IMG/VR virus record: IMGVR_UViG_3300025141_016157
Coordinates: 96,347-160,346 of that record
Strand: one strand, 5' to 3'
Origin: a virus
Length of the DNA: 64,000 nt
The notes under the pieces were generated by a model, which saw only the letters and a program-made list of their open reading frames with translations, was not told the origin of the DNA and did not search any database. Below, piece by piece: positions 7,722 to 63,059 of the stretch. Position 1 is the first letter of the stretch. Each line of letters starts with the position of its first letter. The position numbers and the translations under genes are program-made.

Positions 7722-8357
7722 ATGATTATTACAGAGAAAAGGATAAGAGAAATTGTTCTCGAAGAAATTATAAGAGAGCAAGAAGAAGTCAATCAAGATT
7801 GTCCAATTCCATTTCTTGCTGCCATATTAGCCTCTGAAGCTCCCAATAGTGAAAGAGAGATGAGTGCCGTATATGATGTTATTATGAAACGAGCAGAAAT
7901 AGGCTTTAAAGAAGTAAATACGGTCGATGGACAATTAAGAGTTCCCAGGCAATTCTCTGGATATACAAGATTTAGACCAGACGATACTGCATTTATTGCA
8001 TACTATAGTGGTACTGCTCCAGATTCTGAATATTCAGTTTCAGCAGATAGAGTAGAAACAGAGAAGCTTATAAGAAGAAATCAATTTAAAAGAGCATGTG
8101 GTGTAATAGTCTCAGATTTTCAAGATCCCGGTAACCCAGATGCACCTACATATGGAGCAACTCATTTTGTAAATCCAAGAGCAGCATCGACAGATAACAA
8201 GTGGTGGGAACTAGATACGTTTAGACCGATTCCGATTAATAATGGATATATAGGTGATCATCTTTTTGGGTGGGACTTGACAACAAGACAGTCAAGAGAA
8301 TCATATTTACAGTTTAGATCTAGCCATCCAGAATTTAGCAGTCTCTATCCGGATTAA
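7722..8357 (+). CDS. SleB-like cell-wall hydrolase with N-terminal packaging-type tag
   Basis: Residues 1-19 match the shared tag (MIITEKRIREIVLEEIIRE). The remainder resembles the Hydrolase_2 / SleB lytic glycosidase fold: LAAILASEAPNSEREMSAVY corresponds to the family's early catalytic-glutamate region, followed by RQFSGYTRF and YGATHFVNP, which align with the family's QFSG and GATHF segments. Predicted action is cleavage of peptidoglycan glycan strands. With a packaging tag instead of a signal peptide, a virion-carried lysin used at entry is the best guess. Length is 211 residues. The SleB assignment is by motif only, so moderate. Confidence 0.65.
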   Translation: MIITEKRIREIVLEEIIREQEEVNQDCPIPFLAAILASEAPNSEREMSAVYDVIMKRAEIGFKEVNTVDGQLRVPRQFSGYTRFRPDDTAFIAYYSGTAPDSEYSVSADRVETEKLIRRNQFKRACGVIVSDFQDPGNPDAPTYGATHFVNPRAASTDNKWWELDTFRPIPINNGYIGDHLFGWDLTTRQSRESYLQFRSSHPEFSSLYPD

Positions 8358-8360
8358 GCT

Positions 8361-9020
8361 TTAATCTTCAAATTTTCTCAGCCTGGCAACACCATCTGTC
8401 ACAGTAACATACGTCTGGTGTGTAACCCAGTCGCCTGCATTGATATATGTTTTAATATTCTGATCTTCGTCAACCCATATTAAAGCTTCTGGTATGTGTG
8501 TATGACCCATAATAAACACATCAACTTTGGGATGGTGTCTAAGAATATTTATAATTGATCTTAGCTTGTGCTTCTTAATTTGAATTTCCGTCCACCATGT
8601 TGTAAAGTCAAAGTTAAAAGTGAATTCAAGTATATTTTGAATAACAGATAGAAATTTAACAAATACTCTATTTGCAAGAGCACCCTTGTCGTAAGAATCG
8701 CCGTGTTCAACTCTAAACACTCGGCCTTCATCTTCAAAGTCATACCTTTTAACAAATTCAACACCCATTATTTTTTTACCAACAACTCCCATTAAACCTT
8801 CGTCATGATTTCCAACTACATAGATAATTCTTTTTGCATCACCCATTTTTTCAAGTATCTGAAGACATCTTTCTGTAAAGACAGGTATCTTTATAAAATC
8901 TATAATATCACCAGCGAGAACAAGCTCATCACAATCCTCAGACTCTAAAAATGATAAAAGCTCGAGAGACTTATAGAACCTAGTCCCAATATGTGTATCA
9001 GATATAATAACTCTTTTCAT
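8361..9020 (-). CDS. LpxH/YbbF-like calcineurin-type metallophosphoesterase
   Basis: A minus-strand gene converging on the SleB-like gene with a 3-nt gap. The metallophosphoesterase signature is complete: ISDTHIGT, LAGDIIDF, VGNHDEG, a HGD segment and MGHTHIPE, in that order, over 219 residues. The nearest textbook relative is UDP-2,3-diacylglucosamine hydrolase of lipid A synthesis, which has the same motif order and length, but the substrate cannot be fixed from sequence. If it acts on lipid A precursors it could alter the host outer membrane. Orientation opposite to its neighbours suggests separate control. Confidence 0.75.
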   Translation of the reverse strand: MKRVIISDTHIGTRFYKSLELLSFLESEDCDELVLAGDIIDFIKIPVFTERCLQILEKMGDAKRIIYVVGNHDEGLMGVVGKKIMGVEFVKRYDFEDEGRVFRVEHGDSYDKGALANRVFVKFLSVIQNILEFTFNFDFTTWWTEIQIKKHKLRSIINILRHHPKVDVFIMGHTHIPEALIWVDEDQNIKTYINAGDWVTHQTYVTVTDGVARLRKFED

Positions 9021-9113
9021 TGAACAGTTTGCTAACCTTATATTAATATTATATACAGAACTACAAGGTGTACTATACTTGTGTTACTGAAGTTTAAAAA
9101 TAAAGGAAAAAAA

Positions 9114-9356
9114 ATGACAGATACAAAAAACACATCAATGGCTTTTAGCGATGAGGTAATTGGACAAATTGCAAAACTAGTCCAACTAGCAATTATTACA
9201 GGGACAGATATTGTTGATAATTTAAGGATGATGCGTGTAACTCTTGATGGAGAAACTGATGTTCTTACACTAACTGAAGAATATCGTGAAATATCAGAGG
9301 CTCAGGTTGAAAAGCTTATGCAAGAAGTAGAGGCACTTCAATCAGAAGAGGTGTAA
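9114..9356 (+). CDS. Small hypothetical protein
   Basis: An 80-residue acidic protein. The ATG at 9114 is preferred over the upstream GTG at 9081 because an AAAGGAAAA ribosome site lies just before it and the extension would be lysine-rich and unlike the rest. The fold looks helical (DEVIGQIAKLVQLAIITG), followed by a short strand region and a helical EAQVEKLMQEVEALQ tail. It precedes the MazG-like gene by 3 nt, so the two are probably co-translated. Function unknown. Confidence 0.65.
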   Translation: MTDTKNTSMAFSDEVIGQIAKLVQLAIITGTDIVDNLRMMRVTLDGETDVLTLTEEYREISEAQVEKLMQEVEALQSEEV

Positions 9357-9359
9357 GCT

Positions 9360-9731
9360 ATGGAAGATAGACTCTTAGAAATATTTAGGAGAAGAGAATC
9401 TTTTATGAAGAGCCTTGGTGATTCTTCCGGAGAATCTATGAACTGGCCACTTGATTTATCAAAAAAAGAAAATCAGCAACATGTCAGGGATATGGCACTA
9501 AGAGGTGTCGAAGAGATGTTTGAAGCACTTCAGCATTTAAAAAACTGGAAACCTCATCGGAAAACAGAAATAACTGAATTTGATAGAGAAGAATTTCTTG
9601 AAGAGATTGTAGATGCATTTAATTATTTTCTATCGATTCTTGTCCTTACAGGATTTGATGATAATGATTTAATTGATGCATACAGAAGAAAAGACAAGAT
9701 TATAAATGAAAGATTGAGGACTGGATATTGA
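9360..9731 (+). CDS. All-alpha NTP pyrophosphatase (dUTPase_2/MazG-like)
   Basis: A 123-residue all-alpha NTP pyrophosphohydrolase. The magnesium-binding helices are visible: RGVEEMFEALQHLKNWKPHR and then EFLEEIVDAFNYF, giving the EExxE ... ExxD pattern of dimeric dUTPases and MazG. It would hydrolyse dUTP or another non-canonical dNTP to the monophosphate, protecting phage DNA and feeding dUMP to ThyX. Its stop overlaps the start of the next gene, itself a MazG-like/HAD fusion, so the two form a nucleotide-sanitation pair. Confidence 0.75.
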   Translation: MEDRLLEIFRRRESFMKSLGDSSGESMNWPLDLSKKENQQHVRDMALRGVEEMFEALQHLKNWKPHRKTEITEFDREEFLEEIVDAFNYFLSILVLTGFDDNDLIDAYRRKDKIINERLRTGY

Positions 9732-10639
9732 AAGTTAAAAAGCTATTTGAAGATCAGAATTATTTTTCAAAGATGATAGGTACTGTGTGTAACACATCAG
9801 AAGATCTTGATAACTTTACAAAAACCCTATCTCTTGCACTTCATAAAGAAGTAAGTGATCTTGTATCTGCTACTAACTATAGATCTCACACTGATGATAG
9901 TATGGTTCCAGATGCAGACAAGATACTTTTTGAATCAGTAGATGTAATTAGATATGCAGTAGCTATAATGAATGCGTGGAGCATAACTCCTGAAAAATTT
10001 CAAAAAGCATGGATACTAAAGGACAAGTATCTTTCACTTTCAAGAAAGATTGAAGGAAATACTTGGAAAGGGGAAAAAGTTGCAATTGTTGATATGGACG
10101 ATGTTCTTTGTGAGTTTAGAGTAGGATTTTCAAATTGGCTAAATAAAAACTACAGCGTTATAACTGATGTAGAATCAAAAGAGTATTATTTTATTAATGC
10201 TCTTGAAAAAGCAGGTATAAACCCAGAGGGAATATTTTTAAAATTTGTATCTGAAGATGGATTCTCATCTTTAAAGCCAGCATCCGGTGCAATAGATTTT
10301 ATTAAATCTCTTCAGGAGAAAGGTTATTTTATTCATATATTGACTGCAAGGCCAGGAGATAATCTAAGATGTCTTTATAATACACTTGACTGGCTTGACT
10401 CAAACAATGTCTGCTTTGACAAGGTTAGCTTCTCATCAGAAAAACTGAGATGGTGCATGCAATCAGAATACTGGTCATCAGGTGCAATAGAGTTTGCAAT
10501 AGATGATTCACCTAAACATGCAGCAGAATATGCAAAACATGATATAAGAGTTCTTTTGCCAAGAAAGACTTATAATACAGAGGTTCAAAGTCTTTCAAAT
10601 GTAATTGTCTATGATTCTTTCCTAGATATTGATATTTAA
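9728..10639 (+). CDS. MazG-like domain fused to HAD-type 5'(3')-deoxyribonucleotidase
   Basis: A 303-residue fusion beginning with TTG at the TTGA overlap with the previous stop. Residues about 1-110 look like an all-alpha pyrophosphatase (LHKEVSDLVSATNYRSH, then KILFESVDVIRYAVAIMNAW). From about residue 118 there is a HAD domain: motif I IVDMDDVLCEF, a HILTARPGD motif II/III region and a final AIDDSPKHA motif IV. Similar HAD proteins dephosphorylate dNMPs. One chain could convert an unwanted dNTP to dNMP and then to nucleoside. The E/D pattern in the MazG part is less complete than in the preceding gene, so that half may be degenerate. Confidence 0.7.
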   Translation: MKVKKLFEDQNYFSKMIGTVCNTSEDLDNFTKTLSLALHKEVSDLVSATNYRSHTDDSMVPDADKILFESVDVIRYAVAIMNAWSITPEKFQKAWILKDKYLSLSRKIEGNTWKGEKVAIVDMDDVLCEFRVGFSNWLNKNYSVITDVESKEYYFINALEKAGINPEGIFLKFVSEDGFSSLKPASGAIDFIKSLQEKGYFIHILTARPGDNLRCLYNTLDWLDSNNVCFDKVSFSSEKLRWCMQSEYWSSGAIEFAIDDSPKHAAEYAKHDIRVLLPRKTYNTEVQSLSNVIVYDSFLDIDI

Positions 10640-10667
10640 TTTATCCAATGATTAAGAATTTTCTGCA

Positions 10668-10702
10668 GCAGTTGAATAATTAAACATGTTAACTGCTATA
10701 AT
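10668..10702 (+). promoter_or_regulatory. Putative promoter/operator with inverted repeat
   Basis: GCAGTT at 10668-10673 and AACTGC at 10691-10696 form a perfect 6-bp inverted repeat immediately before TATAAT at 10697-10702. TTGAAT at 10672 could serve as a -35 with a 19-nt spacer. It lies upstream of the tagged gene at 10739. Confidence 0.4.
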
Positions 10703-10738
10703 TGTAGAAATAAATTTATTAACGAAATAGAGGAAAAG

Positions 10739-11671
10739 ATGAAGCTAACTCAAAAATCTTTAAAGAAAATTATTCTTAGCGAGCTTAGAAGGTCCATATC
10801 AGAACAAGCACGAGATGCGGGTGACGTCCCCGGGGGCCAGGCACCAGCACGAGGCACCCAAGCCTATGCTGACAGCCAGAGAGAAATATGGGGTGTCTCT
10901 GATGAAGATCTCGAAAGAGAGCGCATCCAGAAACAGGCAGACGAGCGAGGAATATCTTTTGAAGAAATGGAGGCTATTCTTGCTCATATGGATTCCCCAG
11001 AGTACCGCAGAGAACAATACCTAAGACAGCAAGAACAGGCACGTGCCCATGCACGGGATGAAGGAAACTGGCCTGAGCCAAGGACTGGCAATATGTATGA
11101 AATCATTGGTGATCCACACAGCGTTGATATTCAAAACGGATTGAAGTGGTTGTGGCTTGGTGCAGTCCGGGACTCTAAGGTTTTGGAAGGTGTTGCTAAA
11201 CAGTTCACCCCTAGAGTTCCAGCTGAGGGTGAGTACTTGGCAGGTTTTTCTTCTCCGATGTGGGCATTGGTTGATCACAGGGACGAAAATGGTGTATATA
11301 CACAGCTTGTCACTCAGCCCGTGGGTGAGAGGCGAAGAGGCGCAGAGATATGCAGAATCACCGTCGAATACATTATGAAAGTATCGGGCGATCAAGTAGA
11401 TTGTGAAATGGCATGGAACAGTGATATGGTTAGACCAGGTAGCCAGCTTGCGCGAATGATGGACGCAGCAGTTCAGGCAGTAAATGGTTCATCAGCTTCT
11501 TTCCCTGCATCGCTAAAATTCTTTCCTGATGGACGAACTGAGGGAGCAAACGCAGAAGTTCCAGCCTCAGAAGACGAAGTACCGGTTGCAATTCTTGAAT
11601 TCACAGGAGGCGAGGTTGTGGCGCTGGTCAACATGGACTTCGGTTTTCGCGTTAGCCCATATGCTCGATAA
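10739..11671 (+). CDS. Tagged accessory protein, function unknown
   Basis: A 310-residue protein. Residues 1-22 (MKLTQKSLKKIILSELRR then SISE) match the shared tag and end in ISE before QA, close to the T4 prohead protease consensus. A low-complexity, Arg/Gln/Glu-rich helical stretch follows (about 30-110), then a more globular part (about 120-310) that I do not recognise; no HExxH or nucleotide-binding motif is visible. The 5' part of the gene is richer in G+C (a CCCCGGGGGCC run) than neighbouring genes, which suggests recent acquisition. Probably cargo delivered in the capsid if the tag hypothesis holds. Confidence 0.7.
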   Translation: MKLTQKSLKKIILSELRRSISEQARDAGDVPGGQAPARGTQAYADSQREIWGVSDEDLERERIQKQADERGISFEEMEAILAHMDSPEYRREQYLRQQEQARAHARDEGNWPEPRTGNMYEIIGDPHSVDIQNGLKWLWLGAVRDSKVLEGVAKQFTPRVPAEGEYLAGFSSPMWALVDHRDENGVYTQLVTQPVGERRRGAEICRITVEYIMKVSGDQVDCEMAWNSDMVRPGSQLARMMDAAVQAVNGSSASFPASLKFFPDGRTEGANAEVPASEDEVPVAILEFTGGEVVALVNMDFGFRVSPYAR

Positions 11672-11729
11672 TAGACTGACAAATTATGAACACTTCGCAT
11701 TGTTTTTTTCATAGTTGAGTTTTTTTATA

Positions 11730-11758
11730 TTGTAAACTTTAATTTCTTGCTGTATTGT
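11730..11758 (+). promoter_or_regulatory. Putative phage promoter, TTGTAAA-N16-TATTGT
   Basis: TTGTAAA at 11730-11736 is followed 16 nt later by TATTGT at 11753-11758, a weaker form of the recurrent element, 25 nt before the secreted-protein gene at 11784. Confidence 0.45.
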
Positions 11759-11783
11759 ATAAATGTAAAGCACAGGAGGAAAT

Positions 11784-12212
11784 ATGTTTCGTTTTACCCT
11801 ACTCACGCCCCTACTTTTTTCACTCTCAGCATACGGAGATATTCCACCAGATAATATTCGCATTGAATCTACTCTGGTTGGAAATGCTCCTATAGAGATT
11901 CCTGAGAGTGATTGCTCTTCTCCCATTTCAAACTCTATTGTTAAGTTTTTAGATACGGGATCAATGTGCATTGAAGGTGTTCGTGCCCATATTGATGGAA
12001 GAGGTTGTAATACAATTTTCTGGGAAAGGGGTTCTGATAATGAATATATCTTCTTTTGCAAGACAAGAGATACATGTGATATTACTCATGTAGGAAGATT
12101 TATTGCATACCCGACTTCACTTCCCGCACCTGAGATTTATTCTAGAAATCCTGCTATTTGCGAAGATTCAAATTATATTATTTTTCATGAACAAAATAAT
12201 GTTAGTGAATAA
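11784..12212 (+). CDS. Small secreted protein
   Basis: A 142-residue protein with a Sec signal peptide (MFRFTLLTPLLFSLSAYGD, cleavage probably after SAYG). The mature part has six cysteines or more, at least some in pairs (SDCSSP, SMCIEG, GCNTIFWERG, FFCKTRDTCD, AICEDSNY), suggesting a disulfide-stabilised periplasmic fold. I do not recognise the family. A strong AGGAGGAAAT ribosome site precedes the ATG. It lies alone between a tagged gene and ThyX with its own promoter-like element, consistent with an accessory host-envelope role. Confidence 0.7.
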   Translation: MFRFTLLTPLLFSLSAYGDIPPDNIRIESTLVGNAPIEIPESDCSSPISNSIVKFLDTGSMCIEGVRAHIDGRGCNTIFWERGSDNEYIFFCKTRDTCDITHVGRFIAYPTSLPAPEIYSRNPAICEDSNYIIFHEQNNVSE

Positions 12213-12242
12213 AATTAACTAGCGTTAAATATAGGAATACAG

Positions 12243-13229
12243 ATGCCAAAAAATAAAAACTTAGAACCAGTTACTTTTCCAATGAAGATTAGATTTGACG
12301 AGGATCCGAGCACTGAGTTTAAGAATGATCTTGAATCAATTAATATTTCACTACTAGACCATCCCGACCCGCTTAGGGCAAGAAGGATGGTGTACCAATT
12401 TATTAATGCAACATGGGAAGATGAGCCCGGTCTTCACAATCCAGACGATGTAGATGACTGGAAGCTTTTTCAAGCACTAGAAGCTGCGCTTCAGTTCAAA
12501 GCTTTGCCTACAGTCTTGGAGACGCTTGATTTTACATTTAGAATTGAAGGAATCGATGTCCAGACAGTTACACATTTAATTCGGCATAGAACAGGATCTT
12601 TCTCTGCTCAGTGTACAGGAGACAGGTGGCAATCTCATGCAAATGCATTAGTTCCCGGTCCCATTCAGAATAGTCCTGAGATTTATGAAAGATGGAAAAG
12701 TCTAGTTGTTGAGTCAAAGAAGCTTTATTGTGACATGATTGATACAAGGAAGATTTCGATTATGGATGCACGAACAATTCTTCCAAAGTGTCTCGAGACA
12801 CATTATTACGCACGCTTTAATATGAAAGATCTTCTAAACTTTATTAGACAAAGAATGGATAAGCAAATTCAGCCAACAACTGACAATATTATTGCATATC
12901 AGATGTACTTAGCCGTTGCAAGAATATTTCCAGAAGTTACAACAGTCGTGAATATGCACTCACCTTCGAGACATTATGTTGCTACTGCAAGAACCGGAAA
13001 GGCAACAAATCTTTATTTTCCAGATAAAGATTCTGATTCGTTTGACTGGCACCCTAATGACTTTATCTACTCAGCATATCGCGATGAAGTAAATGGTACA
13101 GACCCAGATCTCGGCGGAAGAGAAAACTTTAAATTTTCAGAATTGGCATCAATGTACGATAGACAGGTCAATGACCTTGTAGAAAAGTACAATGAGTGGA
13201 AAGAAACTGTCGGATTTGAATCACCATAG
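12243..13229 (+). CDS. thyX: Flavin-dependent thymidylate synthase
   Basis: A 328-residue ThyX-family protein that would methylate dUMP to dTMP using FAD and methylenetetrahydrofolate. The signature is LIRHRTGSFSAQCTGDRW: the RHR triplet (residues 114-116) is intact, but the serine that normally ends RHR-x7-S is Cys124 here. Other ThyX-like segments are LPKCLETHYYARFNMKDLLN and FIRQRMDKQIQP. It is longer than typical ThyX proteins (about 220-250), with extra residues at both ends. It complements the thymidine kinase and MazG-like enzymes encoded in the window. No thyA-type complete gene is visible. Confidence 0.88.
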   Translation: MPKNKNLEPVTFPMKIRFDEDPSTEFKNDLESINISLLDHPDPLRARRMVYQFINATWEDEPGLHNPDDVDDWKLFQALEAALQFKALPTVLETLDFTFRIEGIDVQTVTHLIRHRTGSFSAQCTGDRWQSHANALVPGPIQNSPEIYERWKSLVVESKKLYCDMIDTRKISIMDARTILPKCLETHYYARFNMKDLLNFIRQRMDKQIQPTTDNIIAYQMYLAVARIFPEVTTVVNMHSPSRHYVATARTGKATNLYFPDKDSDSFDWHPNDFIYSAYRDEVNGTDPDLGGRENFKFSELASMYDRQVNDLVEKYNEWKETVGFESP

Positions 13230-13237
13230 GCGAAAAA

Positions 13238-13654
13238 ATGTCTTTTTCAGATTCATTTAGCATGATTGAATCATGGCTTTTTGAAAAGGATTATGAAGTC
13301 TTGTACGAGACTGATGGTCAAGATGCTGTTTATTTTGGCTGTAAGCAAATTATTCTTAACAGTAGAAACCATATTGAAAAGAGACTATATATACTTTTGC
13401 ACGAATGTGGTCACATACTAATAAATAGCAACTCTTTCGACAGGGTATTTTCCCTTAGCAGCGAAACAGAAGCTATAATGGGCGGTAGAAAAGTTTCTAG
13501 AAAAAGAAGAGTTGCAAAGCTAACAGAGGAAATTGAAGCCTGGAAACGAGGTGAGAATCTTGCAAGAAGGCTTGGGATAGAAATAAATGAAGAAAAGTTT
13601 GATAGAATACGTGCGAATGCTATTATGAGCTATATCGAATGGGCAAGAGATTAG
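13238..13654 (+). CDS. ImmA/IrrE-like zinc metallopeptidase-like protein
   Basis: A 138-residue protein with the zinc motif HECGH inside YILLHECGHILINS (about residue 50), flanked as in ImmA/IrrE peptidases by a preceding strand pair and a following helix. A later KLTEEIEAWKRGENLARRLG helix offers the third ligand region (EIEAW). Phage proteins of this type occur widely as small HExxH enzymes of uncertain substrate. It begins 8 nt after ThyX with a GGCGAAAAA site. It has no packaging tag, unlike the next peptidase, which lies convergently and overlaps it by 4 nt. Confidence 0.7.
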   Translation: MSFSDSFSMIESWLFEKDYEVLYETDGQDAVYFGCKQIILNSRNHIEKRLYILLHECGHILINSNSFDRVFSLSSETEAIMGGRKVSRKRRVAKLTEEIEAWKRGENLARRLGIEINEEKFDRIRANAIMSYIEWARD

Positions 13655-14463
13655 CTCACTGAATGTTTAATATTTGTGTAGAGCTTAGTTAGAAATTTCT
13701 CTAGAGATTTTCTATCATTCTTTAATGTTTCTTTATATCTGGAAACTATTCCAGCAAGATCAGAGTCTTGCCTTTTGATAAGTGAAAGCGCTTCTTCTTG
13801 CGTGTATTTATCTAAAAGCTGCTCAGATGCTTCATATGCAAATGCATCAATTTCATTATGAAGGCTAAGGTAGTCTTCCTGCGTTCCGCCTTTTGACAAC
13901 TGCTTGGGATCGTTCTGTAGTTCTTCCCATGCCTCTTCTTCACTAATCCCTTTGCTTTCTGCCTGTTTCTTAAGTTGATTATAGTGAACTAGTTCATGGT
14001 TGATAGTTCGTGATATTATCTTTGATAGCTCTGTAGAGTCTAAGTCATCCATATCATACTCATCAGAGTAGGGTCTAAACTCAAGCCATATAATGTGTTT
14101 CCCATTTTCAGGACCTCTGTATTGACCTCTCATCATCCAGTTGCTAGGATATCCTCCATATTCATCTCCCGGTCCTAAAGTATATAGCTCATTATCTGTA
14201 ACACTGAGGAAAAAATATAGATCTGTACCAAGATCACTAGCAGATGTATTTAGTGCATCCATAAGAGTTTCAATTGCAGGAGTTGACCAGGTCGACTCAT
14301 CAACAAGATCTACATCATTTTCATTGTGAGCCATTTCCCAAAACTTAGAATCGACAATTCCTTGAAAAATAGCTGATGTCAATTCTTTATCAGGTGCTGT
14401 TGATTCACACAGCAAGATCTCTTCCTTGATGATCTGTCTTAATTGCCTGCGTGTGATTTTCAT
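13651..14463 (-). CDS. Tagged HExxH metallopeptidase
   Basis: A 270-residue minus-strand gene. Residues 1-20 are the shared tag, MKITRRQLRQIIKEEILLCE, ending in LCE before ST, which fits the (L/I)xE-(A/S/G) prohead cleavage consensus. A zinc motif HELVH occurs in RTINHELVHYNQL (about residue 160), with a downstream HNEIDAFAYEA glutamate that would be the third ligand. The rest is unrecognised. It is the only tagged gene on the minus strand, and converges with the ImmA-like gene. Expected role: a packaged peptidase delivered to the host or acting during virion maturation. Confidence 0.75.
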   Translation of the reverse strand: MKITRRQLRQIIKEEILLCESTAPDKELTSAIFQGIVDSKFWEMAHNENDVDLVDESTWSTPAIETLMDALNTSASDLGTDLYFFLSVTDNELYTLGPGDEYGGYPSNWMMRGQYRGPENGKHIIWLEFRPYSDEYDMDDLDSTELSKIISRTINHELVHYNQLKKQAESKGISEEEAWEELQNDPKQLSKGGTQEDYLSLHNEIDAFAYEASEQLLDKYTQEEALSLIKRQDSDLAGIVSRYKETLKNDRKSLEKFLTKLYTNIKHSVS

Positions 14464-14569
14464 GTTTAAACCCTGTTAGATAATAATTATTTCACTTTTT
14501 CTAATTTATTTTAAAAACTACTTGCGACAAAGTTATAATCATCTATACTATAAACAAGGAGAAATAGTA

Positions 14570-15010: not shown

Positions 15011-15029
15011 AATTTAATAACATCGTTGC

Positions 15030-15058
15030 GTGTAAATTTGGCTAATTTATTTTATAAT
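15030..15058 (+). promoter_or_regulatory. Putative phage promoter, GTGTAAA-N16-TATAAT
   Basis: GTGTAAA at 15030-15036 and TATAAT at 15053-15058, spacer 16 nt, sit 17 nt before the DNA polymerase III alpha ATG. One of the best copies of the recurrent element. Confidence 0.65.
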
Positions 15059-15074
15059 AAATTGAGGAATATAA

Positions 15075-18000
15075 ATGTCATCTATTATTAAACCCAAGAA
15101 GTTTGTCGGTCTACATGCACATTCTGGAACAGGTAGTCCGTATGACGGTCTTGGATATCCAAACCAGCATATTGACTTTGTCTTGTCAAATGAAATGAAT
15201 GCATGGGCACTGACTGATCACGGTAACGGTAACGGTCTTGCCCATGCACATGCTTATGCAAAGAAGCTAAAGAAGAAAGGTAGGGATTATCGACAGATTT
15301 ATGGTGTTGAGTTTTACTTTGTACCTTCATTGCTTGAATGGCGTGAATCTTACGAAGCACATCGTGAAGAAGTTCGTGCAGCAAGGTCTGAAAAGAAGTT
15401 AAAAGAGTCAACAGATATTAACTCTGAAGATGAGATTTCTGGAGGTCTTATAATTGAAAATGAAGATGAGACAAAAAATGATTTCGAGAAAAACGATTGG
15501 AAGAGGCGATATCACCTAGTTGTCATCGCAAAGAATCAAATTGGTCTACAGAATCTTTTCACTCTTGTCAAGAAGTCTTATACAGATGGTTTCTACAGAT
15601 TCCCTAGAATTGATTACAATCTTCTCAAGATGCACGGTGAGGGTCTTGTAGTAAGTACAGCATGCATTGGTGGCTATCCCTCATCTTTAATTGCTAGAGG
15701 GGAGGCAACAGGCAAGTCTGATAGTGATATTATTCTAGATTTAGAAAACATGTCTGATAGATTTATTGATGCCGTAGGCAGGAAAAACTTTAATCTAGAA
15801 GTTCAATTTAACTCTCTATCAATGCAACATAAAACCAATAAGCATCTTATTTCTCTACATGAGAAAACAGGTATACCGCTTGTCGCTACTGCTGATAGTC
15901 ACTACTATGGTAGAAATATGTGGGAAGCACGAGAATTGTATAGAAAACTCGGCCGCATGGGTGCAAGAGGAGATGCAATGCCGTCACTTCCAGCTTTTGA
16001 AGACTTGAAGTGTGAGCTCTATCCCAAGAATGCTGAACAAATGTGGGATGAGTATAAACAGCATGCTTCAAGCTATGATTTCTACAAGGGTAAAGATCAG
16101 CTAATAGCTGATGCAATTGAAAGATCTTACGATATTGCATGGGAACAATGCGAAGATGTCTGGTTTGATGAGGAGGCAAAGCTTCCAAGATTTGGTACAC
16201 CGACAGACTCAGCATTCAATCAGCTAGCACGAAGAGTTAAAGAGGCACTAGTTAAAGAAGACCTTCATAAAGATCAAGAATATGTTGATCGTGCAAAGAT
16301 GGAGCTAGATGATATCAAGTATCTTGGATTTGAAAACTATTTCCTAACTATGACAAAGGTTTTTGACCTAGCATCACAAAGCACTATTATCGGCCCAGGT
16401 CGCGGCTCTGGCGCTGGATCACTAGTTAACTACTTGCTAGGAATTACAACAACAGACCCGATTAAATATGGGCTTCTATGGGAGAGATTTCTTCACAGGG
16501 CAAAGGCAGGATGGCCAGACATTGATACAGATGCTGGTGATAGAGATGTCCTGATCAATGCTTCAAGAGAACTTTTCGGAGAAGAGTCTGTTGTTCCAGT
16601 TTCCAATTTTAATACACTTAAGCTTAAGTCCCTTGTTAAGGATGTTTCAAAGTTTTATGGTATTGACTTTGGCGAAGTTAACGCAATGACAAATACTTTA
16701 GAAAAAGATGTTATGCATAAAGCTATGGGTGATCATGAAGAAAGATCAACATATGTTCTTACACATGAAGATTGTATGAAGTACTCGCAGAAGTATTCTG
16801 ATTTTATGGATGAATACCCGAAGGTAAGTGAACATGTCCAGAATCTTTTTATGGAGTCTAGATCAATTGGTAGACATGCTGGGGGTGTTTTAATCTGCCC
16901 GAATCTCGAGAAGCATATGCCCGTTATTAAGGTAAGGGGCGAATTGCAAACACCATGGTCTGAAGGTATGAACTTTAGACATCTTGAAACAAACGGATTT
17001 CTTAAGTTTGATTTTCTCGGTCTAACAACACTTAAGATGGTCGAAGATTGTACAAGACTTATTCTTAGAAAGCAAGGCAATCTATCACCTACGTTTGCTG
17101 ATATTCAAAAGTTCTTTGATGAAAAGATGAATTGTAGATATAATGATCTTGATGATCAAAATGTATGGGAGCATGTTTACCATAAGGGTCGGTTTGTACA
17201 GGTATTCCAGTTTACCCAGCAAGGCGCAAGAAACTTTTGCACTTCTGCAAAGCCAAGTACTATTGAAGAATTAGCAACAATTACAGCAATCTATCGGCCA
17301 GGACCTCTTTCTGCTGGTGTTCATAGAAAGTACGTAAAAGCTAAGAAGTCAGTTGAGGATGGTAAACCTATTGAGTATGATCACCCTGTTATCGAAGAGA
17401 TTCTAAGCGAAACTTACGGCTTTATCTCGTTCCAAGAGCAGTTCATGCTCTTAGCACAGAAGCTAGCTAATTTTGACAAGGGTGCATCAGATAAGATGCG
17501 TAAGACACTAGTTAAGAAATCACTCGATTCAAATGCTGCAAAGGTTCAAGAAAGAATTGACCTTCACAAGAAGTTTGTCAACGGTGCAGTTGAGATATCT
17601 GGGATGGATAAGGACAAGGCTGAGAAGCTCTATGAGACAATTGAATTCTTCTCTGGGTATGGCTTCAATAAGTCGCATGCAGTGTCCTACGCCATTGATT
17701 CCTATTACTCTGCATGGCTTCACACATACTATGAAAAAGAATGGCTTGCAACATGCTTGCAAACACAAAATGGCTCTAGTAAGTTTGGAAAGGTCATCTC
17801 TGAGATTAAATCACTAGGATATACAATTTTACCGCCTGACATCAACGCCTCTTCTGATGTCTGGGTTTACAGTGATGAGAGGGGAGGCTTTGTCCCACCT
17901 CTAACAGCAATCAAGGGTGTTGGCGACGCTGCCGTTGCAGAGATTATGGAAAGGAGACCATTCTCCAGTCTTGATGAGATGATGTTTACTGAGGATGGCA

Positions 18001-18632
18001 AGTGGCGACCATCAAAGATGAACAAGACATGTTTTAGCTCACTTTCTTTGGTCGAGGCTTTTGGAAGCCTAGATGAGTTCAAAACTGGAAAGGTACTAAA
18101 TCACAGACAACTTTACACTGTTATCATTGACAACTATGACCTCCTTAAGAAGGGCAGACATGGAATGACAAAGACTGCTGTTAAGAAATTGTTAAAGGAA
18201 CAGGACTACATTCCAAACTTTATCGATATCAAGCTTAACGAGGTTGATGGAATGCCTGACTGGAATCGTGCAGAGAAGATTGGAAACAGTGTTGAATTAA
18301 TGGCAAGTGCAGATGAGACTCTTGTATTCCCGCCAAGAATTATGGCAAAGATTGAAAAGGCAGATGTTCGCCCAGTCACTGCACTCTCGGGAAAAGAAAG
18401 AGATATTGTCTGGTTCTGTATTCAAACAATGGAAGAGAGAACAACAAAGAACAACAAGAAGTTCTATCGGATGAAGGTCATGGATAATAACTCTGAGAGC
18501 TGCTGGCTCCGTGTCTGGGGTAGGTTTGATGATCCCCCTGACCTATATACCATGTGGCTGGCTGAAGTAGCTTCTACAGAGTCCTGGGGTTGTTCTACAT
18601 CATCATATAAGATGAAGAAGCTAGAGGTTTAG
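15075..18632 (+). CDS. dnaE: DNA polymerase III alpha subunit (DnaE type)
   Basis: A full-length 1185-residue C-family replicative polymerase (E. coli DnaE is 1160). The N-terminal PHP domain shows LHAHSGTGSPYDG, LTDHGNGNG, ATADSHYYGR. The three catalytic aspartates are visible: D482 and D484 in WPDIDTD and D646 in LKFDFLGLTTL; YRPGPL and the helix-hairpin-helix segment AIKGVGDAAV are also conserved. A C-terminal OB-like domain follows (MEERTTKNNKKFYRMKV). It should synthesise phage DNA with the window's DnaB-type helicase. Most phages use A- or B-family polymerases, so a bacterial-type alpha subunit is noteworthy. No clamp, tau or epsilon gene is seen here. Confidence 0.95.
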   Translation: MSSIIKPKKFVGLHAHSGTGSPYDGLGYPNQHIDFVLSNEMNAWALTDHGNGNGLAHAHAYAKKLKKKGRDYRQIYGVEFYFVPSLLEWRESYEAHREEVRAARSEKKLKESTDINSEDEISGGLIIENEDETKNDFEKNDWKRRYHLVVIAKNQIGLQNLFTLVKKSYTDGFYRFPRIDYNLLKMHGEGLVVSTACIGGYPSSLIARGEATGKSDSDIILDLENMSDRFIDAVGRKNFNLEVQFNSLSMQHKTNKHLISLHEKTGIPLVATADSHYYGRNMWEARELYRKLGRMGARGDAMPSLPAFEDLKCELYPKNAEQMWDEYKQHASSYDFYKGKDQLIADAIERSYDIAWEQCEDVWFDEEAKLPRFGTPTDSAFNQLARRVKEALVKEDLHKDQEYVDRAKMELDDIKYLGFENYFLTMTKVFDLASQSTIIGPGRGSGAGSLVNYLLGITTTDPIKYGLLWERFLHRAKAGWPDIDTDAGDRDVLINASRELFGEESVVPVSNFNTLKLKSLVKDVSKFYGIDFGEVNAMTNTLEKDVMHKAMGDHEERSTYVLTHEDCMKYSQKYSDFMDEYPKVSEHVQNLFMESRSIGRHAGGVLICPNLEKHMPVIKVRGELQTPWSEGMNFRHLETNGFLKFDFLGLTTLKMVEDCTRLILRKQGNLSPTFADIQKFFDEKMNCRYNDLDDQNVWEHVYHKGRFVQVFQFTQQGARNFCTSAKPSTIEELATITAIYRPGPLSAGVHRKYVKAKKSVEDGKPIEYDHPVIEEILSETYGFISFQEQFMLLAQKLANFDKGASDKMRKTLVKKSLDSNAAKVQERIDLHKKFVNGAVEISGMDKDKAEKLYETIEFFSGYGFNKSHAVSYAIDSYYSAWLHTYYEKEWLATCLQTQNGSSKFGKVISEIKSLGYTILPPDINASSDVWVYSDERGGFVPPLTAIKGVGDAAVAEIMERRPFSSLDEMMFTEDGKWRPSKMNKTCFSSLSLVEAFGSLDEFKTGKVLNHRQLYTVIIDNYDLLKKGRHGMTKTAVKKLLKEQDYIPNFIDIKLNEVDGMPDWNRAEKIGNSVELMASADETLVFPPRIMAKIEKADVRPVTALSGKERDIVWFCIQTMEERTTKNNKKFYRMKVMDNNSESCWLRVWGRFDDPPDLYTMWLAEVASTESWGCSTSSYKMKKLEV

Positions 18633-18663
18633 CCAGATATATATTATCTGAGTGTGACACAGC

Positions 18664-19995
18664 ATGAAGATAACAGAGTCAAGAATCAGAAGAATTATAA
18701 GAGAAGAGCTTCTTCAGGAATCTAGTGACTTTAGATTTGACATTAACAAAAGTGTATATGTACTTCCTGATGCGCAGGTAGAGATTGAAAAAGCGGGGGA
18801 TGGCTGGCTATTAAAGATCAGGAATTTACAAGCAGGACAATTTGGTTCAGTTCCTTTGAACATCTACGGACCATCCTACATGCTTGATTCGCTTGTACCA
18901 CACGGAGCAGAGCCGGGCGATAAGCATCATAGGTTCTTGCAATCTGTAGGCTTTCCATTTGATGATCATCCTCCCTACGAAACCTGGGAGAATGAATTTC
19001 CCGGGGGCGCCAGAAGATTTATCACTGATGGTGACTACCTTGATCAGTACCTTGAAAGATTTCACAAAGATGAGGAATTTACTAGTGAGTTCAGGCTAAG
19101 CTACTTTGGCTACGCTCAGGATGTCTTACAGGGAATTCGCTTAACGCTTGATAGAATTGACAGCTATATACATAGCAATAGGGTTCAAAATATCATAGCT
19201 AGGGATCATGATGATTTTAAAGATAAGCTTGCAAAATTTTTCTCAATAAGTGAAATAAACATTGTTGATAAGACAGCACGAGATACGGCTGGTTTCTATA
19301 TGCCATCTGAACACAGTATCACAATTGCAGTTGCAAGAAACCCGCGTAAGGTGACAAGGGAAACAACCTATCATGAATTTCTTCATCACTGGCAAGAAAT
19401 TTTTGATGAACCTGAAAATTTTGATTGGAAGTTTCGTCCACTTGAACGTGAAGATGAGACAGGCTTAGGGCAAGAAGATGAAACATATGAAGCTCTTTAT
19501 TCACAACTAATGGCTGCCTCAAATATTCCAGTAAGAAGGTGGCTTAGGAACCTCGGAGCAAGCTATCTTAATCTTCCTACTAATTTTGACAGATATACTG
19601 TTAGAGAGTCAATGAGAAAAGCTGAAAGCTTTGAGATGTCATTAAGCGCTGATGATAAGGGGGAGTGGAGTGGTTTTGATTCAGTCTTTAAGGCATTTTA
19701 CCAGTTTCAGGAAAACCACTTTACAATGTCCCTAAGACGACTCTTTATGATCTTAAATAACTTAGGATATGATTTAGATTTAACTAGTGATAATAGCATT
19801 GAAAGATTTAAAGAGGGATTAAATTTATTTTTAAGATTTGGATTTCCACACAGCGTATATCTTAAAAACAGGGATTTGATTGCGTTACCTTTGTTTCTTA
19901 AGCCTACACCAAAGAATATAAATTTAATCACAAGAATAGGTGATACTCTTGCTTCTAATGAAATACATTCTGACAGTGGTACTGAAACTGTATAA
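18664..19995 (+). CDS. Tagged HExxH metallopeptidase-like protein
   Basis: A 443-residue protein beginning with MKITESRIRRIIREELLQE, the clearest copy of the shared tag, with LQE before SS matching the prohead-protease consensus. The central zinc motif is HEFLHHW within ETTYHEFLHHWQEIF (about residue 240), with an acidic EDETYEALYS segment some 30 residues later that could give the third ligand. The C-terminal third is helical. Its first 60 bases are nearly identical to those of the gene at 20970. No signal peptide. Candidate packaged peptidase. Confidence 0.75.
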   Translation: MKITESRIRRIIREELLQESSDFRFDINKSVYVLPDAQVEIEKAGDGWLLKIRNLQAGQFGSVPLNIYGPSYMLDSLVPHGAEPGDKHHRFLQSVGFPFDDHPPYETWENEFPGGARRFITDGDYLDQYLERFHKDEEFTSEFRLSYFGYAQDVLQGIRLTLDRIDSYIHSNRVQNIIARDHDDFKDKLAKFFSISEINIVDKTARDTAGFYMPSEHSITIAVARNPRKVTRETTYHEFLHHWQEIFDEPENFDWKFRPLEREDETGLGQEDETYEALYSQLMAASNIPVRRWLRNLGASYLNLPTNFDRYTVRESMRKAESFEMSLSADDKGEWSGFDSVFKAFYQFQENHFTMSLRRLFMILNNLGYDLDLTSDNSIERFKEGLNLFLRFGFPHSVYLKNRDLIALPLFLKPTPKNINLITRIGDTLASNEIHSDSGTETV

Positions 19996-20035
19996 AACAA
20001 TTATTAAGAATAATTATATTAAGAGCAAAGTTATT

Positions 20036-20968
20036 ATGAAAATCACACACAAGCGGCTAAAAAGAATTATAAGAGAAGAGCTTCTACGTGAGGCCAGTGG
20101 AGCTGCAGGTCCGGGCACAGTTCCAGGATACAATTATATTGAGGTATCTGAGTACAGAGGTAAACCTGCTCACATGATAAATGCTAAGCATCTCAAAAGA
20201 ACTTTGAAAGAGACATTGGGTATAAAGCAACATGGAACGGCTGACGACCACTTCCACCAGGCGGGCTTGGGAGGTATTATTTCTGGTTGGGGAAGCCTAA
20301 GTAAGAAACTAACAAAAATCTGGAGCGATCGAATCCCCCAGGGACAAGGCGGTCATGGAACGGGATGCCAAAGCTGCTGGGCAGACTTCTTTATTCTTGT
20401 AGATCTTGGAAAATGTGGAGCATCTCAGGCATACTTGATCCCTGGTGTTAGCGTTGTTGAAGATATTCCAATTATAGTATTTGGAGATATTAGTCTTGAG
20501 CCTCTAATTGATCACATAGCAGATGAAGCAGGCTTGGCGATAATTGGGAAAGGCGAAAAAAGAGATGATGCTGAACAACAGACTGTTGAAAATGAGTGGG
20601 CAGAATGGACAGGTAGACAGTATGAGCTTATTAGTAAATTTCATAATAAGGTGTATTATGGAGGCGAGATGCTTTCCGACCTATTACACGATGCATTTGT
20701 TTTCCGGACACCAGTAATTGTTGTGCTCCCAAGGTCATCGCTAATTAAAGATATTGATCCGTGTGTCATTGCTAAAAATTATCAACTTCTTAGAGCGCCA
20801 CCGGTGACACCGGTGGCTCCAGCTGTTAAGGATGAAGTAGAGCTTGATCCTGCAAGCGTGGAGATAGATCCCCAGGGCCAGCAAATAGATATTGATTCTG
20901 AGATATATGATGCGCCTCTTGAGCCGTATAAATCTCCCTTTAGAACTCCAATAGGTAAGCAAGATTAA
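20036..20968 (+). CDS. Tagged accessory protein, function unknown
   Basis: A 310-residue protein. The ATG at 20036 gives the tag MKITHKRLKRIIREELLRE, ending LRE before AS; the further upstream ATG at 19940 overlaps the preceding gene and would bury the tag, so it is rejected. The body includes HGTADDHFHQAG, a Gly/Cys segment (GGHGTGCQSCWADFF) and alternating strands such as PIIVFGDISLEP and TPVIVVLPRSS; the C-terminal 50 residues are acidic and Pro-rich. The VLPRSS-type strand arrangement recalls ADP-ribosylating or mono-nucleotide-binding folds only vaguely. I assign no function. It is separated by 1 nt from the next tagged gene. Confidence 0.7.
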   Translation: MKITHKRLKRIIREELLREASGAAGPGTVPGYNYIEVSEYRGKPAHMINAKHLKRTLKETLGIKQHGTADDHFHQAGLGGIISGWGSLSKKLTKIWSDRIPQGQGGHGTGCQSCWADFFILVDLGKCGASQAYLIPGVSVVEDIPIIVFGDISLEPLIDHIADEAGLAIIGKGEKRDDAEQQTVENEWAEWTGRQYELISKFHNKVYYGGEMLSDLLHDAFVFRTPVIVVLPRSSLIKDIDPCVIAKNYQLLRAPPVTPVAPAVKDEVELDPASVEIDPQGQQIDIDSEIYDAPLEPYKSPFRTPIGKQD

Positions 20969-20969
20969 A

Positions 20970-23900
20970 ATGAAGATAACAGAATCCAGAATCAGAAGAA
21001 TCATAAGAGAAGAGCTTCTTAAAGAAGATAGCGAAGATACCGTTCTAGGAAAAATGAGCTGGCCCATGGCGCCTGGTGTCTCAGACCCGTTTGGTGAACT
21101 ACGATCCTCAAATCCCCCACCAGTTCTTTCAACATCAATGTGGTATGACCTCGATGGTGACGCAATGCTATCGAGTCATAAGATTGAATCAAAGAAATTT
21201 ATTGAACACCTTATGGATACTATAGAGCACAGAGGTGGAGTTGCAAACTCTGTTGCAAATGCTGGACACATCGCAGCTGTCTACAAGGAAATGGGTGTTG
21301 AGACGCGAATAGCTCCATACCCTGGGCCTAAGCATTGGGGTGCAGGAGATTATGAGTCATGGGGAGAGTTTCCAGGATCAGCAAGAAGTTTTTTTAAAAA
21401 GTATGACCCATGGGTTCTTGATGCGGACGAGATATTTCTCGTAACAGTTGATAATACTTCTTACAGGGCTCCTGGCCAAAAAGTTACAGAGATTGAACCT
21501 GAAGATATGGAGATGGGAGTTGAATACGGAGGAACAACTGATCCCGCAGCTGGCAAGATTAAGCGAGCACTTAGCTCTCTACTTGGTGACCTTACGCTTC
21601 CTGCCCATTACGATCCTTCACCAGTTCAACTGACCGCTGCTAAATCATGGCTGTCTCAATGGCTTCCAGGAGGAAATCCATCTCCTGAAATGGCTAGGGC
21701 AATGGCAGCTACAAATCCATACAATGCTGTCTGGGAAACATTTCTAGGTCCAATAAAAGAGTGTCTAAGCGGTCAAGCAGCTGCCAAAGAAGAAGCTACT
21801 CGAAGAGCATCAAAGCAGGATGATTTCTATTCTAGAGAAGGGGCAGACATAACCTTTGCTGGAGGAGCAACGTCAGAGGATACCCAGGCTGTTCTCAAAC
21901 AAATGCAAAAAACTGGGGAGGCAGAAAAGATATCAGATGAATCAATTGGGACTTCTTCTGCTGGTCTGTGTGCATCAGCCAGAGCATCAGAGCTTATAGC
22001 ATTGTTAGTTTTGCCATCTGGACAGTTTACTTTAGCCGGAAGGATTGCGCTAGCAGCTGGTCTCGTTCATCTTGCAAGAGGCTCTCACAGAGAGGCTATG
22101 TTTGAACTACTGCTTGGTGCATTTGAGATTGTAGCAGCAACCAAAGCGATTGTAAGATATACCGCAGTAGTTAAAAGTGCACTTAGGTCAGGAAAGCTTC
22201 CGGCAGATGACATTCTCGAAGAAATGATTAAAGCTGGAGTATTTGAAGAGCATGCTGATATAATAAGGCGGTTAGCAAGACAGCCAAAGATGGAGGAAGA
22301 AGTTCAAGCTATGCGCCAAGAGATGGCAAGAGTAATCGAGACAATGGATAGTACAGATCCCTTGAAGCCTTATCTGGATGCATATGTTAGAGGAGCCAGT
22401 TCAGATGAGCTTAGGGGAATATACAAGGCTGCCAAGGCTGAGATTGAGTCTGGAGCTCGCTGGGACATTCACACGTCAACTAGACGTGCAGCTGATATTG
22501 ATCCAGATGAGCTCGATGCGTGGCTAGAAAGACTTGAGGACTTACCGCTTACATCATCTCCTGGATCTAGAAAAGCTGTAATAGACAAGTATATAGAATC
22601 TCAGATCAGTATAAATAGAGCTCTGGAAGCTGAACAGGCAACAGCAAGAGGTGCAGGTCGAGGGAAATCGACTCCGGAAAATCCATGGGGAAAGGGTCCT
22701 GAGCCTAAAGCAATTAGACCCGCAGGATCTAAGGCGCCATTAGCACAAACAGCCAATATGGGAAGACAGATTATTGATTTAGCATATGCCAAATTACGAT
22801 CGATACCTGATGGTAAAATTTATAAGATTGCAAAATTCGAAAGAGGTCACTTCAGCGACGTTGATAGAATTGAAATTAGACTGGATGGTTTGTTTGATGT
22901 TGATGATATTGAAAAAATTGTTGACGACTCTCTCGGTGACTATCTAAACACGCTCACACCCCCGCAGGCATCAAGGTATAAGCAAGATGTTATTGAAGAA
23001 ATCCAAAACCTTGACTTTGTAGTAGGACCAAGGACTCCTGACAGGGTGGGACAATATGTCCAATCCGGACCTGGTCAAAGAGGCCAAGTCTGGGTTGAAC
23101 CGTTTGACAAAGAAGAGTGGAAGGCTATAGTAGGAACCAATAGAGATCGACCAGATTTTGAAGAAGCCGTTAAAAAAGCTTTTATCGACGCTCTAGATTC
23201 TGGAACAAAATTTGATTTGCCAGAGCAGGTGAGAAATACACTTTCTCATGAACTTGGTCACTGGATAGACCTCACTATCGAGGGAAATAAATATGATCAC
23301 CTTATTGTAGATTCAAATGGAATTCCCATGAGGGAAATCGATGGCAAGCAGATGACATTTGATCAAGCTGTCAAAGAAAGAAAAGTTAAAACAATAGAAG
23401 AATGGCTACAGGACCCGCCGGATATCTTTGGAGATTTCGTAACGCAACCCTGGCATGGAAGAATTGGGGAGCTAGATGCTGAAATAACAAGAGGCGTAAC
23501 AGATTTTCAAGATTCCCTAGAGGCATCAATTAAAAGAATTCGTGACCTTGATGATCAATATAAGCTTCCCTGGGATATCTCTCCCAGAAAGCCGCCGCGA
23601 GATCAACAGCCAGTAGCATCTGATAGTCCGTCAGCATGGGATAGAAGAAGTACTACCAAACACCCATCACAGACTACTCGCAGACAAGAGCCGAAAAAAT
23701 GGGATGATGCAGAGACAAAGTCAGCAATGCACAAAGAAGAGATGGCAGAGATCGGCTTGGACGAACTAGATTATACATATCAAATATTGACTGATAAAGA
23801 TCTATTTAGGGATATATTTGTCGGAGACTACTTTCCTATTGAGCCTAACCGTGGGTATCTTGATGATTATGGATGGGTAGGAAGTGCAGAAAATATCGTA

Positions 23901-24047
23901 GATCAAAAGATTGATGACGTTCTTTTCGAACCTGGCGGATTATGGGACTGGGCTAGAAAGGAAGCAGGAATAAACGTTGAGTACATTGACATGCAGGAGT
24001 CAGTTGTATATGTGTCTCGGTGGATGAAACTTGCAGGTATAAAATGA
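20970..24047 (+). CDS. Large tagged HExxH metallopeptidase-like protein
   Basis: A 1025-residue protein with the tag MKITESRIRRIIREELLKE, ending LKE before DS. About residues 345-410 are unusually hydrophobic and alanine-rich (LIALLVLPSGQFTLAGRI), possibly a membrane-interacting or insertion segment. A zinc motif HELGH lies near residue 763 (TLSHELGHWIDLTIEG) with an acidic GELDAEITRG downstream. Long charged helices flank both. The architecture of tag, membrane-active segment and peptidase suggests a virion-delivered enzyme that may have to cross a membrane; this is inference. The stop overlaps the next small gene (ATGA). Confidence 0.75.
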   Translation: MKITESRIRRIIREELLKEDSEDTVLGKMSWPMAPGVSDPFGELRSSNPPPVLSTSMWYDLDGDAMLSSHKIESKKFIEHLMDTIEHRGGVANSVANAGHIAAVYKEMGVETRIAPYPGPKHWGAGDYESWGEFPGSARSFFKKYDPWVLDADEIFLVTVDNTSYRAPGQKVTEIEPEDMEMGVEYGGTTDPAAGKIKRALSSLLGDLTLPAHYDPSPVQLTAAKSWLSQWLPGGNPSPEMARAMAATNPYNAVWETFLGPIKECLSGQAAAKEEATRRASKQDDFYSREGADITFAGGATSEDTQAVLKQMQKTGEAEKISDESIGTSSAGLCASARASELIALLVLPSGQFTLAGRIALAAGLVHLARGSHREAMFELLLGAFEIVAATKAIVRYTAVVKSALRSGKLPADDILEEMIKAGVFEEHADIIRRLARQPKMEEEVQAMRQEMARVIETMDSTDPLKPYLDAYVRGASSDELRGIYKAAKAEIESGARWDIHTSTRRAADIDPDELDAWLERLEDLPLTSSPGSRKAVIDKYIESQISINRALEAEQATARGAGRGKSTPENPWGKGPEPKAIRPAGSKAPLAQTANMGRQIIDLAYAKLRSIPDGKIYKIAKFERGHFSDVDRIEIRLDGLFDVDDIEKIVDDSLGDYLNTLTPPQASRYKQDVIEEIQNLDFVVGPRTPDRVGQYVQSGPGQRGQVWVEPFDKEEWKAIVGTNRDRPDFEEAVKKAFIDALDSGTKFDLPEQVRNTLSHELGHWIDLTIEGNKYDHLIVDSNGIPMREIDGKQMTFDQAVKERKVKTIEEWLQDPPDIFGDFVTQPWHGRIGELDAEITRGVTDFQDSLEASIKRIRDLDDQYKLPWDISPRKPPRDQQPVASDSPSAWDRRSTTKHPSQTTRRQEPKKWDDAETKSAMHKEEMAEIGLDELDYTYQILTDKDLFRDIFVGDYFPIEPNRGYLDDYGWVGSAENIVDQKIDDVLFEPGGLWDWARKEAGINVEYIDMQESVVYVSRWMKLAGIK

Positions 24048-44970: not shown

Positions 44971-46748
<1,778 letters not shown>

Positions 46749-55772: not shown

Positions 55773-55806
55773 TAGAAACGAATAATTATAAAATAGAGAG
55801 GGCTTG

Positions 55807-62956: not shown

Positions 62957-63020
62957 AATTTGTCCTATAGAATTACGTATCACGAACTTCAATTCACTAA
63001 AAAAATATTTTACATTTAAT

Positions 63021-63048: not shown

Positions 63049-63059
63049 TAAAGAGCGCT

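Follow-up and report, generated by a model that had tools for sequence, protein, structure and literature searches.

In bacteriophage T4, the internal proteins IPI to IPIII and Alt are unrelated to each other, and they share a short N-terminal leader, the capsid-targeting sequence (CTS), which ends in L/I-x-E and is cut by gp21. A review of T4 head work gives L/I-x-E as the gp21 motif, and in the IPIII leader an Asp placed at position 10 reportedly inhibits processing and not targeting (PMC9026906). The T-even proteins Ip1 to Ip3 are described as injected proteins that act against type IV restriction; at least ten such proteins occur in related phages, and they have nothing in common in sequence except their packaging leader (PMC12373910). 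In phiKZ-like giant phages such as SPN3US and 201phi2-1, inner head proteins are cut after x-E by a gp21-related protease, and their N-terminal propeptides were proposed to act like a CTS (PMC5694885, PMC10052503). Here we describe an N-terminal segment, called the tag below, that is carried by six proteins encoded in a 64,000-nucleotide stretch of viral DNA (the window). The window covers bases 96347-160346 of the 160,346-base IMG/VR record IMGVR_UViG_3300025141_016157 (G000), and the remainder of the record was also analysed. Judged from the sequences, the tag is very probably a removable capsid-targeting leader that would load cargo proteins into the prohead, resembling the T4 CTS in function without matching it in sequence.

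The six proteins open with a common 16-residue helix-like segment that is followed by [LI]xE, with the Glu at residue 19, 20 or 22. They are the following, with a slash at the predicted cut:

7722..8357, plus strand: tagged protein of 211 amino acids; leader residues 1-19 (7722-7778); predicted cut IRE/Q, at E19.
10739..11671, plus strand: tagged protein of 310 amino acids; leader residues 1-22 (10739-10804); predicted cut ISE/Q, at E22.
13651..14463, minus strand: tagged protein of 270 amino acids with HExxH (HELVH); leader residues 1-20 (14404-14463); predicted cut LCE/S, at E20.
18664..19995, plus strand: tagged protein of 443 amino acids with HExxH (HEFLH); leader residues 1-19 (18664-18720); predicted cut LQE/S, at E19.
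20036..20968, plus strand: tagged protein of 310 amino acids; leader residues 1-19 (20036-20092); predicted cut LRE/A, at E19.
20970..24047, plus strand: tagged protein of 1025 amino acids with HExxH (HELGH); leader residues 1-19 (20970-21026); predicted cut LKE/D, at E19.

The first-pass annotation had claimed that these six proteins start almost identically, that the shared segment ends at a T4-like cleavage site and that the bodies behind it differ, and all three claims were borne out. The reading frames are found in frame at the six positions; [LI]xE followed by S, A, D or Q is present in 6/6, with the Glu at residue 19 in four proteins, 20 in one and 22 in one; and the best cross-match between bodies has E = 0.037 (all-against-all blastp, residues 25 onwards). 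For the fifth protein, the mechanically called open reading frame (ORF) is 19940-20968 and begins with GTG, and the tagged ATG at 20036 is its in-frame codon 33 and likely the start codon. In a leave-one-out profile the six tags score 26.6-46.4 bits, against a maximum of 20.0 bits among 3180 shuffled proteins of the same record.

The tag is not confined to this record. A degenerate DNA pattern written for it matches at least 120 IMG/VR stretches, against 1 for the same codons reversed. This pattern was strict (MKIT, then II[KR]EE), so that selection biases the ATG start and residues 1-15 and leaves residues 17-24 unbiased, and identical N-termini were collapsed before counting. For the 237 distinct tagged IMG/VR proteins the consensus is MKITK.QL..IIKEEL, with lower conservation behind it. 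A profile built from these relatives only recovers the six window tags at 15.5-49.4 bits (shuffled maximum, 8.3 bits), with the proteins at 7722 (15.9 bits) and 10739 (15.5 bits) clearly weaker than the other four, and it adds two proteins encoded just behind the prohead protease of the record, at 61161-61406 (23.5 bits) and 60687-61094 (14.9 bits). Across the whole record, the top eight matches to this profile all lie at a protein start or at most 2 residues from one, when the in-frame ATG is taken for 20036. Among the relatives the tag is N-terminal in 390 of 404 copies, counted with each ORF made to begin at the tag if a start codon was present at that point, and the tagged genes often lie in tandem arrays. 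Twenty-five tagged records with an S77 protease, chosen for the tag, hold 1-29 matches each (48-sequence profile, E <= 0.001), the richest being G036 (29), G013 (26), G009 (24) and G027 (23); weak matches occur in 2/37 random records. Synonymous codon choice is roughly as variable within the tag as in the bodies, and therefore selection acts on the protein; an element acting at the DNA level was dropped for the same reason.

Outside IMG/VR, the pattern matches 18 stretches in 14 genomes of a collection that holds one genome per species, 84,980 from bacteria and archaea in all. Eight records of annotated phages were tried with the profile. At E <= 10, 26 matches were found in an uncultured phage of 484 kb, and nine of the ten distinct ones inspected begin with Met; Flavobacterium phage immuto has one clear match, protein immuto35A_190, beginning MKKSQLRQIIKEAL; S-SSM7 and Mel-JY01 have weak, chance-like matches; and RM378, RAS14, LR756511 and T4 have none. 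A tblastn search of phages with the tag alone found nothing, probably because the query is too short. Among the titles and abstracts listed from open PubMed Central, the literature searched, none was about this tag, and a description elsewhere is possible.

Evidence for the predicted cleavage site comes from the residues behind the helix, which the search pattern did not select. Of 377 distinct tags, 236 have [LIVM]xE with the Glu at residues 18-24, compared to 73.7 expected (standard deviation, 7.3; maximum, 98) from 1000 shuffles of residues 17-60. The strict form [LI]xE is found there in 193/377 (51.9 in shuffles), leaving 184/377 without it. The version of the site with Asp is depleted at the same positions (33 versus 61.3 in shuffles), and A, G or S follows the site in 42.8% of cases versus 22.7%. 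Moreover, in the 237 tags a Glu stands two positions after a hydrophobic residue at 17, 19 or 20 with a frequency of 0.68, 0.36 or 0.65, respectively, versus 0.10-0.12 otherwise. The shuffle tests overstate significance, because related sequences are not independent.

The record also encodes a protease of the kind such a site calls for. At 55.5-66.2 kb, outside the window, it has a T4-type terminase, a T4-type portal protein (PF07230, 8e-79), an S77 protease and a Gp23 capsid protein (PF07068, 3e-76). The protease matches PF03420 with E 1.2e-26 (90 bits versus a cut-off of 27) and the PHROG head maturation protease with 4e-56. Between protease and capsid genes lie four small genes and that of a 483-amino-acid protein (record 62705-64156) without a Pfam match, which we call scaffold-like from its position only. 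The record order, terminase, portal, a 284-amino-acid protein, protease, scaffold-like protein and capsid, is similar to that of Flavobacterium phage immuto; the T4 order is portal, gp67, gp68, gp21, gp22 and gp23. The capsid proteins themselves carry a comparable site: all 21 that were aligned (20 loci plus G000; of 30 loci, eight gave no ORF and two the wrong frame) have [LIV][LV]xE ahead of the conserved part. In G000 it is LLRE/QSS with the Glu at residue 61, and T4 gp23 has LTE/AE near residue 65, the two being compared without an alignment. A capsid region of a relative gave no match among annotated phages.

A diverged copy of the tag opens a gene of this head cluster. This gene, a short way behind that of the protease (record 60687-61094 in G000), is conserved in 13 records, namely 12 relatives and G000, with two of the 13 sequences identical. 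It encodes a protein of 130-147 amino acids with a diverged leader (..LK.LVKECLVEIL.E/G and variants, the E being followed by G or A) and a conserved C-terminus, and this protein gave no match among annotated phages. With this gene included, the neighbourhood running from protease to capsid gene contains an N-terminal tag scoring 12 bits or more in 15 of 27 tagged records, one scoring 8 bits or more in 21, and none in 6. The C-terminal ends of the post-protease and scaffold-like proteins, NWAALAF and RWAVLAG, respectively, resemble each other and are perhaps a common shell-binding motif. Elsewhere, at window 3419-4021 on the plus strand, a ClpP-like protein also matches PHROG head maturation proteases (4.8e-25) and is possibly a second protease, far from the head genes.

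Homologous bodies can carry different leaders. Another homolog is present in the fetched loci for 125 of the tagged bodies, and for 31 there is one that scores below the tag threshold. Twenty-seven of these sub-threshold homologs align near the body start; several carry a diverged form of the same tag, and by eye five of the 27 have a different short leader ending in LxE (L110:3374, L110:4265, L100:1391, L273:5579 on the minus strand and L118:9903). Examples of such alternative leaders on homologous bodies are MKKLLTEWRKYLNE, MSNSTSKWFKYLTE and MKHLREYIRQILLE. Other homologs are longer proteins with the matching part far in the interior, and 5/27 have no site in the scanned stretch, all of these being counts without a control. 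The case closest to hand is the minus-strand window protein at 13651, which is homologous over its length to L110:3374-4201 (28% identity, 6e-24), whose leader, MRFLKEYISQVLKE/A, differs from the tag of 13651 and ends in LKE/A. We call such leaders class II and the tag class I. A narrow class II pattern is found in 15/2453 proteins of tag-phage loci and 0/1909 of control loci, and a wider one, which also catches the protease, in 30/1756 versus 5/1909, with 12 of the 30 looking by eye like the protease itself; these patterns were written after seeing the examples, and the counts are descriptive. The class II leader resembles the N-terminus of the S77 protease, which fits [VIL]Lx[ESD][WFY] in 26/27 sequences, just as the class I leader resembles the start of the conserved post-protease gene. 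Most class II bodies scanned have no Pfam match. One has GNAT above the cut-off (4e-6), and below it there are similarities to the ART-PolyVal ADP-ribosyltransferase (3e-4), Tlde1/YkuD (2e-4 and 0.002) and LigT phosphoesterase (4e-4). T4 Alt is an injected ADP-ribosyltransferase. In the record outside the window, the protein at 51357-51713 has a weak tag-like start, and its homologs include tagged bodies in L104, L073, L124 and L062.

The capsid-targeting module proposed in the first-pass annotation is thus supported as far as computation reaches, by the S77 protease in the record, a site beyond chance and different leaders on homologous bodies. Neither the diverged copy on the post-protease gene nor the second leader class on some homologous bodies formed part of that annotation. 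In the mechanism that we infer, the amphipathic helix (residues 1 to about 16) would dock the new protein onto the prohead core, the gp21-type S77 protease would cut after [LI]xE during head maturation, and the cargo would be freed inside the head and injected with the DNA.

The annotation had further suggested that tag and gp21-type protease should occur together. We compared 42 tagged records of at least 48 kb, out of about 118 tagged records behind the IMG/VR stretches, with 30 records of at least 47 kb out of 50 random ones (one shorter control was also positive for S77). The expectation held wherever the Gp23 capsid protein was present, as 27/27 such tagged records also have S77. Of the 13 tagged records negative for S77, none has Gp23 and one has a T4-type terminase, so most of them look like fragments without head genes. 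The expectation failed, at the thresholds used, for G011, a 125-kb record with one tag (29.7 bits) and a terminase and without a match to S77, S78 or Gp23, which is the kind of genome that the annotation had named as a refutation. Counted by locus, S77 is found in 21/120 tag loci and 10/136 control loci (p = 0.02), a modest enrichment, and in 16 of those 21 loci the tag starts at most 1.5 kb from the protease start, a count without a chance level.

Besides G011, several results weigh against a capsid-targeting leader. Gross co-occurrence with S77 is only moderate, 29/42 tagged versus 11/30 random records (Fisher p = 0.0085), and at 100 kb and above the contrast vanishes (18/20 versus 7/9); since S77 is also frequent in random contigs of large size, we dropped the co-occurrence count alone as a strong argument. 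The tag was seen in 0/11 random S77 records, and only 3 of the 14 pattern-bearing cellular genomes have S77, 11 being without it. The head genes of G000 are some 38-62 kb distant from its six tagged genes. The N-terminal position in relatives is partly a product of selection, because the search pattern demanded an ATG. The tag profile matches nothing in T4 at E <= 10. Finally, 141/377 tags have no [LIVM]xE with the Glu between residues 18 and 24, and HxxE is likewise elevated (173 versus 69), as a helix would produce.

The last two observations would suit a docking helix that stays uncut and brings its proteins to another phage or host hub, such as the replication site, the host polymerase or the membrane, with LxE being just a part of the helix. 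Residues 1-16 carry nearly all of the conservation, although residues 1-15 were also selected by the pattern, and the segment is amphipathic, with a hydrophobic moment of 0.44 versus 0.27 in the bodies. Such a helix accounts poorly for a Glu that keeps its two-residue spacing when the hydrophobic residue shifts among 17, 19 and 20, for the avoidance of Asp and the small residues after the site, for the diverged copy at the start of a conserved head-cluster gene and for the other LxE-ending leaders on some homologous bodies, and we consider it unlikely. It could also be argued that the tagged proteins are structural parts of the virion, with the leader serving as a propeptide in the ordered assembly of the head, as two tagged G000 proteins are encoded between protease and capsid genes and the post-protease gene is conserved in 13 records. 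Most tagged bodies scanned lack a family match, single records hold up to 29 matches and some bodies carry enzyme domains (AAA_33, GNAT), which makes a structural role quite unlikely.

Recombination offers a further explanation, in which the tag is the relic of a 5' gene cassette that was copied around the genome and has no function itself. Two of the window copies are 71% and 88% identical in DNA to a third over 65 nt, and the frequent tandem arrays in relatives fit such copying. Against a relic stand the synonymous variation mentioned above, a peptide kept across many phages with differing bodies, and an LxE site that floats while its spacing to the hydrophobic residue stays constant; this origin appears highly improbable.

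If the tag is a capsid-targeting leader, as we favour, it shares with the T4 CTS the short N-terminal leader on unrelated proteins, the L/I-x-E end and the company of an S77 protease and T4-type head genes. It differs in its length of about 19-22 residues and in its sequence, and it does not belong to the sequence family of the T4 CTS, as the best stretches of T4 IPI-III score -6.5 to -21.6 with the tag profile. By eye only, the class II leader (MKxLLxxW...LxE) is closer to the T4 CTS than the tag is. The numbers also differ, as T4 has three internal proteins and Alt, and tag records have up to 29 matches. The phiKZ-like propeptides are mostly longer than 100 residues and their motif is S/A-x-E (PMC9026906); SPN3US gp53 and gp54 have a common N-terminal 15-mer, and the excerpts of the giant-phage accounts at hand describe no multi-cargo family. 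Like Ip1-Ip3, the tagged proteins share little beyond the leader. Unlike them, the bodies are without an assigned function, with HExxH in 3/6 and a PADLOC match in 0/6.

The putative cargos are mostly accessory proteins without a family match. None of the six bodies has a Pfam, PHROG, NCBIfam or PADLOC match above the cut-off. The body of 7722 has weak similarity to Hydrolase_2, a cell-wall hydrolase (PF07486, E 0.0044, below the cut-off), that of 13651 on the minus strand matches two PHROGs of unknown function weakly (0.001 and 0.004), and that of 10739 matches neither Pfam nor PHROG. Among annotated phages the bodies of 18664, 20036, 20970 and 7722 had no match. In an IMG/VR search that reaches close relatives only, 18664 and 20970 had no relatives and 7722 had one 100% identical copy. 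Structure predictions were too poor for use, with a mean pLDDT of 34 for 18664 alone and 52 for 13651 with one homolog. HExxH is present in three of the six tagged proteins and in 2/153 other ORFs of the record (p = 0.0003), and from these motifs the three may be zinc metallopeptidases; no metallopeptidase family matched them above the cut-off. The motif is not general to tagged proteins, since in a comparable scan, which covered 388 tagged proteins from every fetched locus, all the proteins listed were of this phage. Two of the three, 18664-19995 and 20970-24047, are otherwise unrelated and have a short stretch in common (10/15 residues, E 0.044; by eye EFPG.AR.F). A small untagged HExxH protein (HECGH) is encoded at window 13238-13654 on the plus strand, overlapping the tagged minus-strand gene at 13651 tail to tail. 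The 68 tagged proteins of relatives with at least 150 amino acids match only ten Pfam families, each in one or two proteins, which include pentapeptide and decapeptide repeats, AAA_33, GNAT, DUF6745 and EF-hand. For a tagged kinase the matches were polynucleotide kinases or RNA ligases, which came from two annotated phages and from two unannotated records.

Two further window proteins have tag-like segments:

36611..37885, plus strand: protein of 424 amino acids, a doubtful seventh copy (MRISRQKIESLILSEI), not counted as tagged.
55804..56229, plus strand: DUF192 protein (DUF192 E 3.4e-33) with a tag-like helix at the extreme C-terminus (ITEDKLREIVRNVLLG).

The start of the former scores 15.5 bits with the six-sequence profile and 1.1 bits with the relatives profile, and the C-terminal helix of the latter scores 18.5 and 7.4 bits, respectively. 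In L110:6998-9769, by eye, a DUF192 domain comes first, then a similar stretch ending LLLRE/SS and then a nucleotidyltransferase-like part, and the helix after DUF192 could be the place of an internal cut in this protein. A late promoter motif of the T4 type was found upstream of only 3/159 ORFs and led nowhere. At 60493-62136 and 62081-63163, both on the minus strand of the window, two lipoprotein-like genes overlap at their ends near three tRNA genes, and by eye they have von Willebrand-like D.SGSM motifs. By eye, 45159-46748 on the plus strand is a GroEL-type chaperonin gene of the phage.

Taken further, the two leader classes suggest to us, with somewhat more confidence than doubt, that in a large, uncultured lineage of T4-like phages the standard system for loading injected effectors consists of two leaders that can replace each other, with class I copying the N-terminus of the conserved post-protease gene, class II that of the protease, and some 10-29 accessory proteins being loaded per phage. 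Injected phage proteins meet the host defences first, and they are hard to spot because their bodies often match nothing. If the proposed role is true, the leader would by itself be enough to predict from sequence which proteins uncultured phages inject. It could also give a transplantable head-loading signal outside the T4 group, and the different leaders on homologous bodies make the content requirements of a capsid-targeting signal directly testable.

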